Source: Arthrobacter sp. MA-N2
GTDB taxonomy: Bacteria; Actinomycetota; Actinomycetes; Actinomycetales; Micrococcaceae
NCBI RefSeq assembly: GCF_000517125.1
Contig: NZ_KI912155.1
Coordinates: forward strand, 249,707-313,706
Direction of reading: 5' to 3'
Length of the DNA stretch: 64,000 bases
Shown piece after piece: positions 35,932-40,984 of the stretch; within the stretch, counting starts at the first letter, position 1; the number at the start of each line of letters is the position of its first letter. Under the pieces are notes generated by a model. The model saw nothing but the letters and a program-made list of their open reading frames with translations, was not told the origin of the DNA and ran no database searches. The position numbers and the translations under genes were made by a program.

Positions 35932-37071
35932 CTAGAGGGCAGCTCGCTGCAGCGAGCGGGCGGCGTCGATGGTTGCCTGGCCAAGAACACGGGTTCCCTG
36001 GTACAGCACGACGGTCTGTCCGGGCGCCACGCCACGGAGCGGATCGACGAGCCTCACCACGAGGCCAACACGTTCGATGCCGGCATCGTCGACGTGCCGT
36101 TCGACCGATGCTTTGGCAGGTACGGGGTCGCCGTGGGCGCGCACTTGGGCATGGCAATCGAATTCGGCGCCAGTGGCGACCTCGGCGATGGGCAGGCCGG
36201 CCCAGGACACCTTGATTCCGCGGATCTCCTCGATGGCGAGCAGAGATTCGGGTCCGACCACCACTTTGTTTTCCTTCGGCCGGATTTCCAGCACGAAGCG
36301 CGGCTTGCCGTCAGCGGCAGGAGTGCCCAGCTTAAGGCCTCGGCGCTGGCCGACGGTGAAGGCGATGGCTCCCGGGTGCTCCCCCACCTTGGTTCCGGCT
36401 TCGTCCACGATGTCGCCCGTGGTCATGTCGATCTTTTCCGCGAGCCAGCCGGCGGTATCGCCGTCCGGGATGAAGCAGATGTCATGGCTGTCCGGCTTGT
36501 TCGCCACGGACAGGCCGCGCCGCTCGGCCTCCGCACGAACCTCGGCCTTGGAAGGGGTCTCCGCCAACGGGAACATCGAGTGCTTGAGTTGTTCATGGGT
36601 CAGGACACCAAGCACGTAGCTCTGGTCCTTGGCCCAGTCCGCCGCACGGTGGAGTTCGGGGTTGCCGTCCGCATCCTGGATCACCTTGGCGTAGTGGCCC
36701 GTGCAGACCGCGTCGAAGCCCAGCGCGATAGCCTTCTCCAACAGGGCGGCGAACTTGATCCGCTCGTTGCAGCGCATGCAGGGGTTGGGAGTCCGGCCCG
36801 CGGCGTATTCGTCGATGAAGTCCTGGACCACATCTTCCTTGAAGCGCTCCGAGAAGTCCCAGACGTAGTACGGAATCCCCAGCACGTCGCAGGCGCGCCA
36901 AGCGTCACGGGAGTCTTCGATGGTGCAGCAGCCGCGGCTGCCGGTGCGCAGCGTTCCGGGCATGCGGGACAGCGCCAAGTGGACGCCGACGACGTCGTGC
37001 CCTGCTTCGACGGCGCGGGCGGCGGCAACGGCGGAGTCGACTCCGCCGCTCATGGCTGCAAGAACTCGCAT
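35932..37071 (-). CDS. mnmA: tRNA-specific 2-thiouridylase MnmA
   Basis: The 379-residue enzyme has the PP-loop [12 protein letters not shown] at the N-terminus. The two catalytic cysteines lie in NPCMRCNE (near residue 98) and HDICFIPDG (near 199), followed by a C-terminal tRNA-binding barrel. It thiolates U34 of the Lys, Glu and Gln tRNAs. Its sulfur comes from a cysteine desulfurase, which is encoded close by at 38491 on the same strand. That pairing is a common actinobacterial neighbourhood. Confidence 0.97.
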
Positions 37072-37164: not shown

Positions 37165-37193
37165 TTGACCGGCTTCGCGGGCGATTCTAAAGT
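37165..37193 (+). promoter_or_regulatory. Promoter of the FAD reductase gene
   Basis: TTGACC (37165-37170) and TAAAGT (37188-37193) are 17 bases apart. The -10 box lies inside the left arm of the operator at 37186-37212, so binding there would block transcription. The 5' leader to the ATG is about 70 bases. Confidence 0.7.
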
Positions 37194-37212
37194 CAAAGCT
37201 ACGAGTTTTAGA
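37186..37212 (+). promoter_or_regulatory. Operator shared with the doxX-like gene (TCTAAAG-N13-TTTTAGA)
   Basis: A 27-base inverted repeat, one mismatch from perfect in its 7-base arms, overlaps the -10 box. The same 7-13-7 layout with near-identical arms occurs at 40515-40541 before the doxX-like gene. That conserved geometry at two promoters about 3.3 kb apart is the evidence for a common repressor, most likely the SufR-like regulator encoded at 39797. Confidence 0.75.
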
Positions 37213-37273
37213 TGTTCGGCCGCGTGGCCGTTTCCTGGTCCACGCGTTCCAAGGCCAAGCGAATCGAGTCACC

Positions 37274-38512
37274 ATGGACATTGAACACATCCTTATTGCG
37301 GGCGGCGGCCTGGCAGGCGCCACGGCAGCCAAGACCCTGCGCTCCGAAGGGTTCCAAGGCCGGATCACGGTGGCCTGCGCCGAAGACGAACAGCCCTACT
37401 TGCGCCCTCCCCTCTCCAAGGAGTTCCTCCTCGGCAAGGCCGCTGAGGACACCGTCCCGGTGCTGGCGGCGGGCTGGTACCGGGAGAACGACGTCGAACT
37501 CCTCCTTGGCGAGGCGGTCACGGCTGCCGATCCTGCCGCCCACACGGTGCACATGAGTTCGGGGGCCGAGCTTCAGTACAGCAAGCTCCTCATCGCGACG
37601 GGTGCGCAGCCGCGCCGGATCCCGCTCCCGGGGTCCGACCTTGCCGGCGTGATGACGTTCCGGACCTTCAATGATTCGCGCAGGCTCAAGGAAGAGCTGG
37701 CACACGGCGGAAGGAACGTCGTGATGGTCGGCTCGGGCTGGATCGGCATGGAGCTCGCCGCGGCGGCCAGCGGCTACGGCAACACGGTGACGCTGCTGGG
37801 CCTGGAAGAGGTTCCGCTCAGCACGGCCATCGGCCCCGAACTGGGAGGCTTCTTCCGCAGCCTGCACGAAAAACATGGCGTGCAGTTCCGGCTGCCCGCG
37901 AGCGCAGCGGAAATCGCCGGAGTCGGGGGCAAGGCGAGCGCCGTCGTCACCAACTCAGGCGAGGTTCTTCCCGCCGATCTCGTAGTGGTGGCCGTCGGCG
38001 TGGTCCCGGATACGGCCTTGGCCGAGGCCGCCGGGCTTGATCTCCGGAACGGAATCGTGGTCGATGCTTCGCTCCGGACCAGCAGCCCGGACGTGTTCGC
38101 CGCGGGAGACGTCGCCAACGCACTCCACCCCTTCACCGGCGAGCACCACCGCAGCGAGCACTGGTCCAACGCCCTTAACGGAGGCAAGGTCGCGGCAAAA
38201 GCGATGCTGGGCCAGGACGCAGTGTTGGACGTGGTCCCCTATTTCTACACGGACCAGTTCGAGGTCTCCATGGAGTACTGGGGATATCCCACGCTCTCTG
38301 CCGGCTCCATACCCGTGATCCGAGGTTCCATGGAGGAAGACAGCTTCCTCGCCTTCTGGCTGCGGGACGGGGCCGTGGTGGCGGCTATGAGCGTCAACCA
38401 GCAACGGGTACAAAAGCCCATCAAGGCACTCATTTCCGGGCGCATTCCGGTGGACGTGGACCGCCTGGCCGACCCAGCCGTGCCGCTGGATCAGTTGTTG
38501 CCCGGCACCTGA
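37274..38512 (+). CDS. FAD-dependent ferredoxin-reductase-like oxidoreductase
   Basis: The 412-residue enzyme has two dinucleotide-binding motifs (IAGGGLAGATAAKTL near 8 and VGSGWIGMELAAAASGYG near 155). The FAD motif SPDVFAAGDVAN lies near 275 and the reductase C-terminal domain is present. It belongs to the ferredoxin/rubredoxin reductase group that serves cytochrome P450 and dioxygenase systems. No ferredoxin gene is adjacent. The 3' end overlaps the cysteine desulfurase 3' end by 22 bases on the opposite strand. The operator upstream links it to the Fe-S block. Confidence 0.9.
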   Translation: MDIEHILIAGGGLAGATAAKTLRSEGFQGRITVACAEDEQPYLRPPLSKEFLLGKAAEDTVPVLAAGWYRENDVELLLGEAVTAADPAAHTVHMSSGAELQYSKLLIATGAQPRRIPLPGSDLAGVMTFRTFNDSRRLKEELAHGGRNVVMVGSGWIGMELAAAASGYGNTVTLLGLEEVPLSTAIGPELGGFFRSLHEKHGVQFRLPASAAEIAGVGGKASAVVTNSGEVLPADLVVVAVGVVPDTALAEAAGLDLRNGIVVDASLRTSSPDVFAAGDVANALHPFTGEHHRSEHWSNALNGGKVAAKAMLGQDAVLDVVPYFYTDQFEVSMEYWGYPTLSAGSIPVIRGSMEEDSFLAFWLRDGAVVAAMSVNQQRVQKPIKALISGRIPVDVDRLADPAVPLDQLLPGT

Positions 38513-39771
38513 TCGCTTGCCGTGCCGACGGCACGGTCTTTACCAAAGCCGTCGCCGTAACCGCGCGCTGCCGTGGCTGCCGTCTGGATGCTGGACTCGT
38601 GTCCGGCCATTCCGGCCACCTTCGCCCGGGCATAGGCATCCGGCAGGGCTCTGAGGAGCGCGTCGACGTCGGCGTCGTTCGAAGAGTGTCCCAGGCTGAA
38701 TCGTTGTGCCCCGCGGGCGGTGTCCTCATCCAACCCCATGGCAAGCAAGACGTGCGAAGGCCTGGGAACGCCCGCAGTGCAGGCGGATCCGGTGGAAGAT
38801 TCGATGCCCGCCAGGTCCAGGAGAAACAGCAGGGAATCGCCTTCACAGCCCGGGAAGGTGAAGTGCGCGTTGCCGGGGAGCCGGGCGTCGCCAGGGGCTC
38901 CGCGCAAAACTGCCTCCGGAATGGCAGCCCGGACTCCGTCAATGATCCGGTCCCGCAAGGCACTGATTCGTTCGCGCTCCGCCACCAGGTTTTGAGCCGC
39001 CGAGTCCGCCGCGGCGGCGAAGGCCGCGATCGACGCCGTATCGAGGGTTCCCGAGCGGACGTCGCGTTCCTGCCCGCCCCCGTGCTGGACCGGCGTCACC
39101 TTGGTGGACCGTCCGAGGAAGAGGGCGCCAACACCCACGGGGCCGCCGATTTTATGGCTCGATACGGACATCGCCGCGAGGCCGGAATCGCGAAAGCTGA
39201 GCGGAATCGAGCCGAATGCCTGGACCGCGTCCGAATGCACGGGAATGCCATGGACAGAGGCGATGTCCACGATCTCCTTGATGGGCTGGATGCTGCCCAC
39301 CTCGTTATTGGCCCACATGACTGTGACCAAGGCCACCGATCCCGGATCACGTTCGATCTCGGTCCGGACGGCGTCGAGCCGAACCACGCCGTCGGAATCG
39401 ACGGGGAGCCAGACCGCTTCGGCTCCTTCGTGGCGTTCAAGCCATTCGACGGTGTCCTGCACTGCATGGTGCTCGACGGCGGAGCACAGGATCCGCTTGC
39501 GGCGGCCGTCTTCGTCGTGGCGGGCCCAGTAGATCCCCTTGACGGCAAGGTTGTCCGCCTCGGTCCCGCCGGAGGTGAAGATGAGTTCGGACGGATGCGC
39601 CCCGGCCGCTGCCGCGATAGCCTCGCGGGCGTCTTCCACGGATCGCCGGGCACGACGTCCCGAGGCGTGCAGCGATGAGGGATTTCCCGTCCGCGCCAGC
39701 TCGCGGGTCATTGCGGTGAGCGCAACGGCGGCAAGGGGCGTGGTGGCGGCATGGTCCAGGTAAACAGGCAC
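38491..39771 (-). CDS. Cysteine desulfurase, IscS/NifS type
   Basis: The 426-residue PLP enzyme releases sulfur from cysteine. It has the PLP lysine in SSHKIGGPVG (near residue 206) and the sulfur-carrying cysteine in SACTAGVPRPSHVL (near 330). The N-terminus begins MPVYLDHAATTPLA as in IscS proteins. It starts 25 bases after the SufR-like regulator stop, on the same strand, so the regulator and desulfurase are probably one operon. It can supply sulfur to MnmA. Confidence 0.95.
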   Translation of the reverse strand: MPVYLDHAATTPLAAVALTAMTRELARTGNPSSLHASGRRARRSVEDAREAIAAAAGAHPSELIFTSGGTEADNLAVKGIYWARHDEDGRRKRILCSAVEHHAVQDTVEWLERHEGAEAVWLPVDSDGVVRLDAVRTEIERDPGSVALVTVMWANNEVGSIQPIKEIVDIASVHGIPVHSDAVQAFGSIPLSFRDSGLAAMSVSSHKIGGPVGVGALFLGRSTKVTPVQHGGGQERDVRSGTLDTASIAAFAAAADSAAQNLVAERERISALRDRIIDGVRAAIPEAVLRGAPGDARLPGNAHFTFPGCEGDSLLFLLDLAGIESSTGSACTAGVPRPSHVLLAMGLDEDTARGAQRFSLGHSSNDADVDALLRALPDAYARAKVAGMAGHESSIQTAATAARGYGDGFGKDRAVGTASDQVPGNN

Positions 39772-39796
39772 TACCCAAGTCTATCGAAGCAGCTGC

Positions 39797-40462
39797 TCAG
39801 CCTGCCGGGCGGATCCTGGCGCAGCAATGGCCTTCGCGGTTGTCATCGGCGATCCGGTCCTCCGCGATTCCGCACGCAGCTGCCGCTCCGCTCAGGAAGG
39901 CGCCGTTCATGGCACAGACGACGTTTGTGTGACTTTCGGCCAGCCGGTGGAACGGGCAATTGACCAAGGAGTACCCGCCGTCGTCGTCAGCTTCCGGACG
40001 GTAGCCGAAGCTCGCCAGGACATCCTCGAAACGTGGCTCCGCGGCACCGGCCTCACGGCCGCGGGCGTAGGCGGTTTCGAGGAGCGCTTCGCGGGGGGAA
40101 CCCCCCTCCGCCATCAAGTTCTGGATGGCGGAAGCCATGACCTCCCCGGCGAGGTCATAGTGGCGCTCGGGAACCGAGGCGCCGATCTCGTCGACAACGG
40201 CTGCGTAGAGCTTTGCAGGGCGCCCTGAACCCGGCCCGACCTTGCCACCGAGCTTGCGGAATTCGACATCCAGGAGCCCGTCACGGACCAGCCGGTCCAG
40301 GTGGAAGGAAGCAGTGCTGCGGGGAAGTCCGAGGGCCATCGCGGCGTCGTCCCGGCTCACCGGGCGGGTTGCAGCGCAGACGTGCTCGTACAGGCGGCGG
40401 CGATTGCCGTCGTCAAGGGATGCCAGAGCGGAAAGCCGACGCAGCCAGGAAAGTCCGGTCAT
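39797..40462 (-). CDS. SufR-like winged-helix regulator with a cysteine-rich C-terminus
   Basis: The 221-residue protein has an ArsR/DeoR-type winged helix (about 18-90; STASFHLDRLVRDGLLDVEF). A C-terminal domain carries cysteines at 169, 183, 197, 213 and 214. Their spacing (13, 13, 15 residues) is close to the C-X12-C-X13-C-X14-C Fe-S ligand pattern of SufR, the iron-sulfur repressor of suf operons. It is transcribed toward the cysteine desulfurase. A half-site (TCTAAAATCAA) lies just before its start, which suggests autoregulation. The Fe-S cofactor is inference. Confidence 0.8.
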   Translation of the reverse strand: MTGLSWLRRLSALASLDDGNRRRLYEHVCAATRPVSRDDAAMALGLPRSTASFHLDRLVRDGLLDVEFRKLGGKVGPGSGRPAKLYAAVVDEIGASVPERHYDLAGEVMASAIQNLMAEGGSPREALLETAYARGREAGAAEPRFEDVLASFGYRPEADDDGGYSLVNCPFHRLAESHTNVVCAMNGAFLSGAAAACGIAEDRIADDNREGHCCARIRPAG

Positions 40463-40476
40463 GCATCCAGCTTAAC

Positions 40477-40487
40477 TCTAAAATCAA
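40477..40487 (-). promoter_or_regulatory. Half-operator before the SufR-like regulator gene
   Basis: TCTAAAATCAA is identical over 11 bases to the left arm plus flank of the doxX operator. No matching right arm lies 13 bases away. Its position 14 bases upstream of the ATG would allow autoregulation. Confidence 0.5.
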
Positions 40488-40493
40488 CACTCA

Positions 40494-40522
40494 TTGCTTA
40501 ATCCCGGGGAACTTTCTAAAAT
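40494..40522 (+). promoter_or_regulatory. Promoter of the doxX-like gene
   Basis: TTGCTT (40494-40499) and TAAAAT (40517-40522) are 17 bases apart. As at 37165-37193, the -10 box is inside the left operator arm, so the two promoters share the same architecture. Confidence 0.65.
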
Positions 40523-40541
40523 CAAACTATCTACTTTTAGA
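40515..40541 (+). promoter_or_regulatory. Operator before the doxX-like gene (TCTAAAA-N13-TTTTAGA)
   Basis: Perfect 7-base arms separated by 13 bases. It matches the site at 37186-37212 in arm sequence and spacing and covers the -10 region. The divergent regulator gene starts 53 bases to the left. Confidence 0.78.
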
Positions 40542-40552
40542 GAGAAGGCATC

Positions 40553-40984
40553 ATGAACACCGCATCATCCCCAGCCCCCACGAAGTCCGGATCACTGTTG
40601 GCCATGGATCCCCAACGACAGGCATTCCTCCTCCTCCGGACCGTGTTCACGGTGGCACCGATCATTTTCGGCCTGGACAAGTTCGCCAACCTGCTCACCC
40701 ATTGGACGATCTACTTGGCCCCTATGGCCACGTCGGTGGTGCCGATCCCGGCCCAGACATTCATGTACATCGTGGGCGTCGTCGAGATCGTAGCCGGGAT
40801 TGCCGTAGCAGTCCGCCCGCGCTTCGGCTCGCTCCTGGTGGCCATGTGGCTTCTGGGAATCATCGTGAACCTGCTGGTACTCGGCAACTTCTTCGACGTG
40901 GCACTGCGCGACTTCGGGCTCCTGGTGGCCGCACTCGCGCTCAATCGTTTGGCTGTCGCCGCGGGTCGAGCCTCCCGGAACTAA
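40553..40984 (+). CDS. DoxX-like membrane protein
   Basis: The 143-residue protein has four membrane segments (about 26-47, 65-85, 90-108 and 115-138). It has the small-membrane-protein look of the DoxX/SURF4-like family (MYIVGVVEIVAGIAVAVRPRFGSLLVAMWLLG). AGAGAAGG precedes the ATG. DoxX proteins are linked to oxidative stress and sulfur chemistry in other bacteria. It lies divergently from the SufR-like gene and carries the shared operator, so it is probably part of the same regulon. Confidence 0.8.
   Translation: MNTASSPAPTKSGSLLAMDPQRQAFLLLRTVFTVAPIIFGLDKFANLLTHWTIYLAPMATSVVPIPAQTFMYIVGVVEIVAGIAVAVRPRFGSLLVAMWLLGIIVNLLVLGNFFDVALRDFGLLVAALALNRLAVAAGRASRN

Follow-up and report, generated by a model that had tools for sequence, protein, structure and literature searches.

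Operators and promoters at the locus

The 64,000-nt stretch of contig NZ_KI912155.1 from Arthrobacter sp. MA-N2 analysed here (the window; positions count from its start) carries the gene of a winged helix-turn-helix (HTH) regulator with a cysteine-bearing sensor domain. Around it lie a divergent gene for a DoxX-like membrane protein and genes for a cysteine desulfurase, a flavin adenine dinucleotide (FAD)-dependent oxidoreductase of the ferredoxin-reductase type (FADR) and the tRNA-thiolation protein MnmA (Table 1). The doxX-like and FADR genes are each preceded by the 27-base palindrome TCTAAA-N15-TTTAGA, and we are highly confident that this element is the operator through which the regulator is linked to its targets.

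Table 1. Features of the regulator locus in window coordinates
Feature	Position	Strand	Description
Operator O(FADR)	37186–37212	.	TCTAAA-N15-TTTAGA palindrome over the FADR -10 box; exact match, letters TCTAAAGTCAAAGCTACGAGTTTTAGA
Operator O(DoxX)	40515–40541	.	TCTAAA-N15-TTTAGA palindrome over the doxX-like -10 box; exact match, letters TCTAAAATCAAACTATCTACTTTTAGA
FADR promoter (predicted)	37165–37193	+	TTGACC -35 (37165–37170), 17 bp, TAAAGT -10 (37188–37193) inside the left operator arm
doxX promoter (predicted)	40494–40522	+	TTGCTT -35 (40494–40499), 17 bp, TAAAAT -10 (40517–40522)
Second tandem operator, most likely decayed	40477–40503	-	covers the promoter of the regulator itself; TCTAAA half-site at 40477–40482
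Regulator	39797–40462	-	N-terminal ArsR-type winged HTH (HTH_20); C-terminal sensor domain with Cys169, His172, Cys183, Cys213, Cys214
FADR (predicted target)	37274–38512	+	FAD-dependent ferredoxin-reductase-type oxidoreductase; Pfam Pyr_redox_2 and Reductase_C
DoxX-like membrane protein (predicted target)	40553–40984	+	sole Pfam match DoxX PF07681, below cut-off
Cysteine desulfurase	38491–39771	-	NifS/IscS-like by family matches; neighbour, probably outside the regulon
mnmA	35932–37071		likely partner of the desulfurase

A preliminary description of this DNA had placed two 27-base sites on the -10 boxes of promoters with 17-bp -35/-10 spacing; both lie exactly where it put them, and the sequence bears out the promoter arrangement in each case. 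The arms are perfect over seven bases at O(DoxX) and 6/7 palindromic at O(FADR). These two are the sole perfect copies in the 4.83-Mb genome (G000), for which about 0.02 would be expected from base composition (63% G+C assumed). When the window was shuffled 100 times, matches at up to two mismatches averaged 0.22, and two matches were reached in three shuffles. The operator had also been said to differ from known SufR sites, and it does: scanning the window for the SufR operator CAAC-N6-GTTG (PMC8593673) with up to one mismatch gave no match overlapping either operator. The nearest such matches lie at 37026 (within mnmA) and at 40195 and 40358 (within the regulator gene); across positions 1–64000 there are 42 of them, where shuffles average 25.

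How general is the promoter layout? A -35-like hexamer, scored strictly as at least 4/6 matches to TTGACA and measured before the TAAANN of the operator arm, stands 17–18 bp upstream in all 28 non-identical FADR sites and at 17 bp in 10/10 non-identical folE sites. For DoxX sites the strict test gives only 16/44; a TTG at 17 or 18 bp is present in 31 of 38 (six unlinked loci left out). By its sequence the layout fits repression through blocking of the polymerase.

The half-site that had been noted before the regulator gene is likewise present, but we reread it as the remnant of a second tandem operator. It stands 38 bp to the left of the perfect site at 40515, and several genera have paired sites 38–39 bp apart between divergent DoxX and regulator genes; as its distance equals the tandem spacing where both sites survive, the half-site is most likely a decayed second copy. 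Such a copy over the regulator promoter would mean that both directions are blocked, with autoregulation. A TTTTAGA/TTTTACA box occurs in the final ~75 bp upstream of the regulator at 76 of 129 non-duplicate loci, as opposed to 1 of 179 control genes, counted with perfect sites masked and the arm of a neighbouring perfect site excluded. By eye this box is often near the start codon, suggesting a regulator leader that is short or absent. The looser palindrome TCTA-N19/20-TAGA is found in 87/126 regulator upstream regions.

The operator accompanies the regulator family

We searched 197 genomes from the family to which the window belongs for orthologues, calling the regulator at E < 1e-35. A perfect site is present in 50 of 66 regulator-bearing genomes versus 3 of 131 without the regulator (Fisher p 7e-29, kinship ignored), and the reversed control pattern in 3/66 and 11/131, respectively. 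Conservation of the site beside this regulator family, set beforehand as a test, therefore holds, and it supports the proposal of an operator common to the FADR and DoxX-like genes.

Upstream regions were taken as 250 bp plus the first 30 bp of each gene, counting each genome once after removal of seven doubled genomes. At non-duplicate loci the perfect site precedes DoxX in 39/79 (52/79 at up to one mismatch), the regulator in 49/119, FADR in 24/81, mnmA in 20/43 and folE in 10/33. None was found upstream of the desulfurase (0/55), DnaJ (0/44) or SpoU-type genes (0/40; 0/139 for the three together), nor before folP-like (0/23) or RibD_C genes (0/17). Many FADR genes and all folP and RibD_C genes sit inside operons, so that their own upstream regions need not hold a site. 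Seven relatives (L038, L039, L109, L111, L119, L120 and L125) have no DoxX by the regulator and no perfect site on that side, with the FADR site kept: a natural co-loss of site and gene. Rows L080–L082 (paralogues at 27–30%), L083 and L084 were left out of the counts, and L077 is without the cysteine-motif end.

Some regulator-bearing genomes hold further perfect sites far from the regulator. We collected 19 such loci (L309–L327), sampling recurrent groups in part (second DoxX, 5 of 10 genomes; FADR operon, 6 of 7; DUF3040, 3 of 4). A further site that we collected, L328, comes from a genome without the regulator. Twelve precede either a DoxX-family gene (six) or FADR followed by folP- and RibD_C-like genes (six), and because they fall on the same two families away from the regulator, they lend the regulon independent support. 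The remaining genes comprise three DUF3040, two small open reading frames without a Pfam match, one DUF1440-like gene and one FAD-oxidoreductase-like fragment. In one Arthrobacter-like genus (L309–L313) a second, unlinked DoxX copy carries its own perfect operator in 5/5 fetched loci; next to it, in L309 (where it matches PF00743), L311 and L312, is a gene for an FMO-like monooxygenase. The three DUF3040 genes, from one genus, adjoin perfect operators (L319–L321, sites 4609, 4464 and 4579) and form an unexpected possible target. The small reading frames (L323:4414-4758 and L325:4972-5220) are related to each other, look thioredoxin-like by eye and also adjoin a perfect operator.

The family extends well beyond Micrococcaceae, to Streptomyces, Rhodococcus, Prescottella, Amycolatopsis, Microbacterium, Cryobacterium and others. 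Named-genome loci were the best 80 of 572, and in a phylum sample 92 of 296 genomes had a match at E <= 1e-20, distant paralogues included. Across 129 non-duplicate loci we counted FADR 79 times, DoxX 78, desulfurase 55, folE 33, folP-like 23, RibD_C 17 and RibA 5; in the 39 named loci from outside Micrococcaceae the counts were FADR 23, folE 22, DoxX 13, folP-like 11, RibD_C 7, RibA 4 and desulfurase 0. Gene names here are the Pfam names of cluster representatives, those of FolE and DHPS being further supported.

Judging by the sequences, the operator letters drift with lineage. The Streptomyces form, TTCTAT-N18-ATAGAA, occurs exactly once per genome in 7/7 (control, 0), where rarity rather than presence is the finding, the genomes having been picked for holding the regulator. 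The looser TTCTA-N20-TAGAA, present once in four of seven other genomes (picked in the same way) and in none of the remaining three, is weak evidence because the reversed control matches three of these seven. Could the sites instead be bound by an unrelated regulator, or be a mere promoter element, as their overlap with -10-like boxes might suggest? Given that they are rare in genomes without this regulator, are tied to its neighbours and unlinked copies, and change their letters among regulator lineages (Streptomyces, TTCTAT...ATAGAA), we find this hardly credible.

Predicted targets

By family, the DoxX-like protein and FADR are redox proteins. The best solved relatives of FADR include ferredoxin and putidaredoxin reductases; among the matches listed, none of 25 NCBIfam families reached its cut-off. 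The window's DoxX-like protein scores 18.7 bits against a DoxX cut-off of 23.6, and DoxX was the best match, always below cut-off, in six of seven copies scanned; the seventh (L311) had no DoxX match. Where folE, folP and RibD_C join the regulon, their predicted products would supply reduced folate or pterin. Proteins of the RibD type are capable of dihydrofolate reductase activity. In the genus tested, the folE of the regulon comes in addition to another copy: two folE genes were counted in each of G192 and G128, and one in each of G000, G009 and G062.

A desulfurase beside, but probably outside, the regulon

The preliminary description viewed the locus as a SufR-like regulon for sulfur or iron–sulfur (Fe–S) supply, with the desulfurase as a member. 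Some observations favour this: the regulator has C-terminal cysteines, the desulfurase begins 25 bp beyond the regulator stop on the same strand, and in another genus (L314, L315, L317 and L327, all four clear loci checked) a perfect site far from the regulator occupies the gap from which the FADR and desulfurase genes diverge, the latter followed by mnmA. Cotranscription with the regulator is indeed plausible in the window, but among the 55 non-duplicate loci where the two genes share a strand, 16 have a gene of opposite strand between them. The desulfurase, moreover, has no site of its own beside the regulator and is missing from every one of the 39 loci from other families, and the -35/-10-like pair in the four shared gaps points to FADR; divergent control of the desulfurase is possible at these four loci. 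As a sign of a regulon for sulfur or Fe–S supply, then, the desulfurase finds no support, and most simply it is presumably the tRNA-thiolation partner of MnmA.

Where does the suf operon itself stand? The genome encodes a SufR-type paralogue (G000:C1:3464126-3465016) with X12/X27 cysteine spacing, beside sufB-like and other suf-like genes by eye. This suf-type operon corresponds to L083:2762-8017, that is, G000:C1 at about 3459.8–3465.0 kb. It has no TCTAAA operator within two mismatches, the one match at three mismatches being at chance level. The earlier suggestion of a small regulon apart from the suf operons is supported. With the spacing of this paralogue, the lack of the operator there and the behaviour of the desulfurase, the SufR-like reading is highly improbable.

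As for mnmA, a candidate target of the 37186 site, the operator precedes it in 20/29 loci with a divergent FADR adjoining and in 0/14 otherwise. Since the site tracks the divergent FADR, we assign the 37186 operator to FADR and reject mnmA. Further along the window, a SpoU-type gene is followed at 42.6–45.1 kb by genes that by eye are ECF-sigma-like, anti-sigma-like and MerR-like; the first of these is found again in 23/139 loci.

The regulator and its cysteines

The regulator belongs to the ArsR/SmtB-type winged HTH superfamily: its match to PF12840 scores 37.6 bits (cut-off, 27), and structure comparison over about residues 5–100 gives Z scores of 9.4–12.0 with ArsR, CzrA, CadC and others. 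The match to NCBIfam HTH_metalloreg is below cut-off. Its cysteines are 29, 169, 183, 197, 213 and 214. Across 54 sequences Cys169, Cys183, Cys213 and Cys214 are among the invariant positions and His172 is kept in at least 90%; Cys197 is not invariant, although some cysteine lies between the second and the last in 89/126. C-X13-C is found in 126/127 non-duplicate orthologues, followed by X29-CC in 90/126. Five cysteines had been called SufR-like, and there are indeed five in the C-terminal part, placed as in Fe–S regulators; their spacing, however, is not that of SufR. Cys169, Cys183 and Cys213 form C-X13-C-X29-C, with one extra invariant cysteine; judged by this spacing, ArnR and not SufR is the closest known counterpart.

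The phylogeny also separates the regulator from SufR. Three clades were recovered with support values of 98/96 for the regulator, 98/97 for ArnR and 100/99 for SufR. The tree held 25 regulator rows (the window's and 24 of 78 named-locus sequences) and two SufR rows; ArnR rows were named by eye through nar, mod, hmp or thrB neighbours. Two rows were odd, ArnR row L274 in its letter make-up and Corynebacterium row L237 in its long branch.

Predicted models had mean predicted local distance difference test scores (pLDDT) of 92.0 and, for the sensor domain, 92.9. The sensor-domain model aligns best with TRAPPC/Bet3 proteins (top Z 9.1 and 8.5). In whole-model searches with Foldseek plus VIA-align, the matches listed, over residues 5–100, were HTH-type or unrelated only.

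What might this domain sense? The cysteines could, in a regulator and operator otherwise unchanged, be zinc ligands or form a thiol switch, giving oxidant or metal sensing without Fe–S. CPFH-X-C-X-CC is a plausible zinc site too, the HTH superfamily is rich in metal sensors, and MopR, a fold neighbour of the sensor model, binds structural zinc. The exact C-X13-C-X29-C of the [4Fe-4S]-binding ArnR (PMC12343034) argues against this reading, which we consider unlikely. Alternatively, the pocket might bind a small molecule such as a pterin, flavin or aromatic compound, with structural cysteines and control by product or substrate. The model does align with ligand-binding MopR/PoxR (Z 6.4–7.3) and with H-NOX domains (Z 5.3–6.0), and pterin and flavin enzymes are part of the regulon; since, however, the sensor domain's invariant positions take in the cysteine set and many loci with DoxX have no adjoining pterin gene, we judge ligand control to be decidedly unlikely.

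A model for the regulon

We lean towards an undescribed Fe–S-type repressor of a redox and reduced-pterin module that is relieved by nitric oxide, oxidants or metals. The regulator would act as a winged-HTH dimer that represses transcription and probably carries a [4Fe-4S] cluster, ligated by Cys169, Cys183 and Cys213/214 and perhaps also by His172. As long as this cluster is intact, the protein would occupy the palindromes over the doxX and FADR -10 boxes as well as the weaker second copy over its own promoter, shutting both directions. Once nitric oxide, oxidants, loss of iron or too much copper had damaged the cluster, the repressor would leave the DNA, and the DoxX-like protein and the reductase would be made, joined in other genera by folE/folP/RibD_C enzymes. 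The purpose may be to keep pterins or folates reduced and the redox state of the membrane balanced when the cell faces nitrosative or oxidative stress.

Several points weigh against this model. Binding, repression, the dimer, the cluster, the signal and the physiological purpose are things that we infer, and the cysteine and histidine set could hold zinc. ArnR and the regulator fall in separate clades, so that function need not carry over. The TRAPPC/Bet3 match is moderate, with BcsD and MopR following at Z 7.3–7.6 and H-NOX at 5–6, and Foldseek alone returned no match with E <= 0.001 for the sensor model. On the side of the operator, genomic matches at up to two mismatches are not enriched (13 places versus 49 for the reversed control pattern); it is for this reason that counts were restricted to perfect sites, and the case for the operator rests on these and on their conservation. 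The perfect site is missing from 16 of the 66 regulator-bearing genomes, several of which have variants with one mismatch or a length of 28 bp, and genome counts share descent and hence are not independent. Moreover, 7/19 unlinked sites precede other genes, Microbacteriaceae loci mostly show (by eye) a one-sided box only, and the four gaps shared by FADR and desulfurase count here as well.

A wider reading, which we hold tentatively and at slightly less than even chances, is that of a third family of Fe–S winged-HTH sensors beside SufR and ArnR, found across Actinomycetota, with an operator tuned to lineage and running a redox and reduced-pterin rescue module. This module would consist of the DoxX-like protein and the ferredoxin-reductase-type FADR, to which many genera add folE, folP-like and RibD_C genes, the last a possible dihydrofolate reductase. 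If true, this links cluster damage to emergency folate supply, and suggests that Fe–S or redox sensing may drive extra folate or pterin synthesis. The analysis supplies a precise operator, predicted targets and a testable signal for a regulator family of a whole phylum that seems not to have been described before. In the open-access literature, covered mostly through titles and the beginnings of abstracts, we found no paper on such a regulon or on a link from Fe–S or redox sensing to folate or pterin.

Comparison with known systems

SufR of cyanobacteria, Mycobacterium tuberculosis (Rv1460) and Streptomyces avermitilis shares with the regulator an ArsR/DeoR-type HTH and C-terminal cysteines of the Fe–S type. 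Its holo form represses from CAAC-N6-GTTG and autoregulates (PMC8593673, PMC6034842), and Rv1460 has C203, C216 and C244, that is, X12/X27 (PMC6034842). SufR thus differs in spacing (X12/X27 in Rv1460, X13-C-X14 in cyanobacteria), operator and its suf target.

ArnR of Corynebacterium glutamicum, which represses narKGHJI and hmp, binds a [4Fe-4S] cluster with Cys179, 193 and 223, and nitric oxide abolishes its DNA binding (PMC12343034). Both proteins combine a winged HTH with a C-terminal three-cysteine sensor of identical C-X13-C-X29-C spacing, and TRAPPC/Bet3 proteins come up for both sensors: TRAPPC3 was suggested as a template for that of ArnR (PMC12343034), and here the sensor model aligns with TRAPPC/Bet3 proteins. 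The syntenic ArnR L274 (after nar-type and near thrB/hom-type genes, by eye) has this spacing too, other ArnR-like rows varying slightly. ArnR differs in forming a separate clade and in its targets, nitrate reductase and flavohaemoglobin rather than DoxX, FADR and folE; the window's regulator family has an extra invariant cysteine and is not found beside narKGHJI or hmp.

A comparable set of genes is controlled by LitR, a MerR-type regulator and hence of another family. Class II LitR of Pseudomonas has light-inducible gene sets with folE and an FAD oxidoreductase, making for a stress-type regulon with folE and an FAD-dependent oxidoreductase as in the one proposed here; it differs in its photolyase and furan-fatty-acid genes, and the available part of the source does not mention DoxX (PMC9758184).

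In M. tuberculosis, Rv2621c has been called ArnR-like (PMC12343034), and a table in PMC10470581 gives Rv2620c as a transmembrane protein from that locus. Judging by the gene names, the two lie on one strand there. Listed expression of Rv2621c is higher in a study of copper with a csoR mutant, higher too after nitrite, and lower with para-hydroxybenzaldehyde (PMC4801387, PMC6593118, PMC10470581), which offers weak hints as to the signal. Our findings thereby provide a reading of Rv2621c-Rv2620c, which by analogy is possibly the same regulator–DoxX pair.

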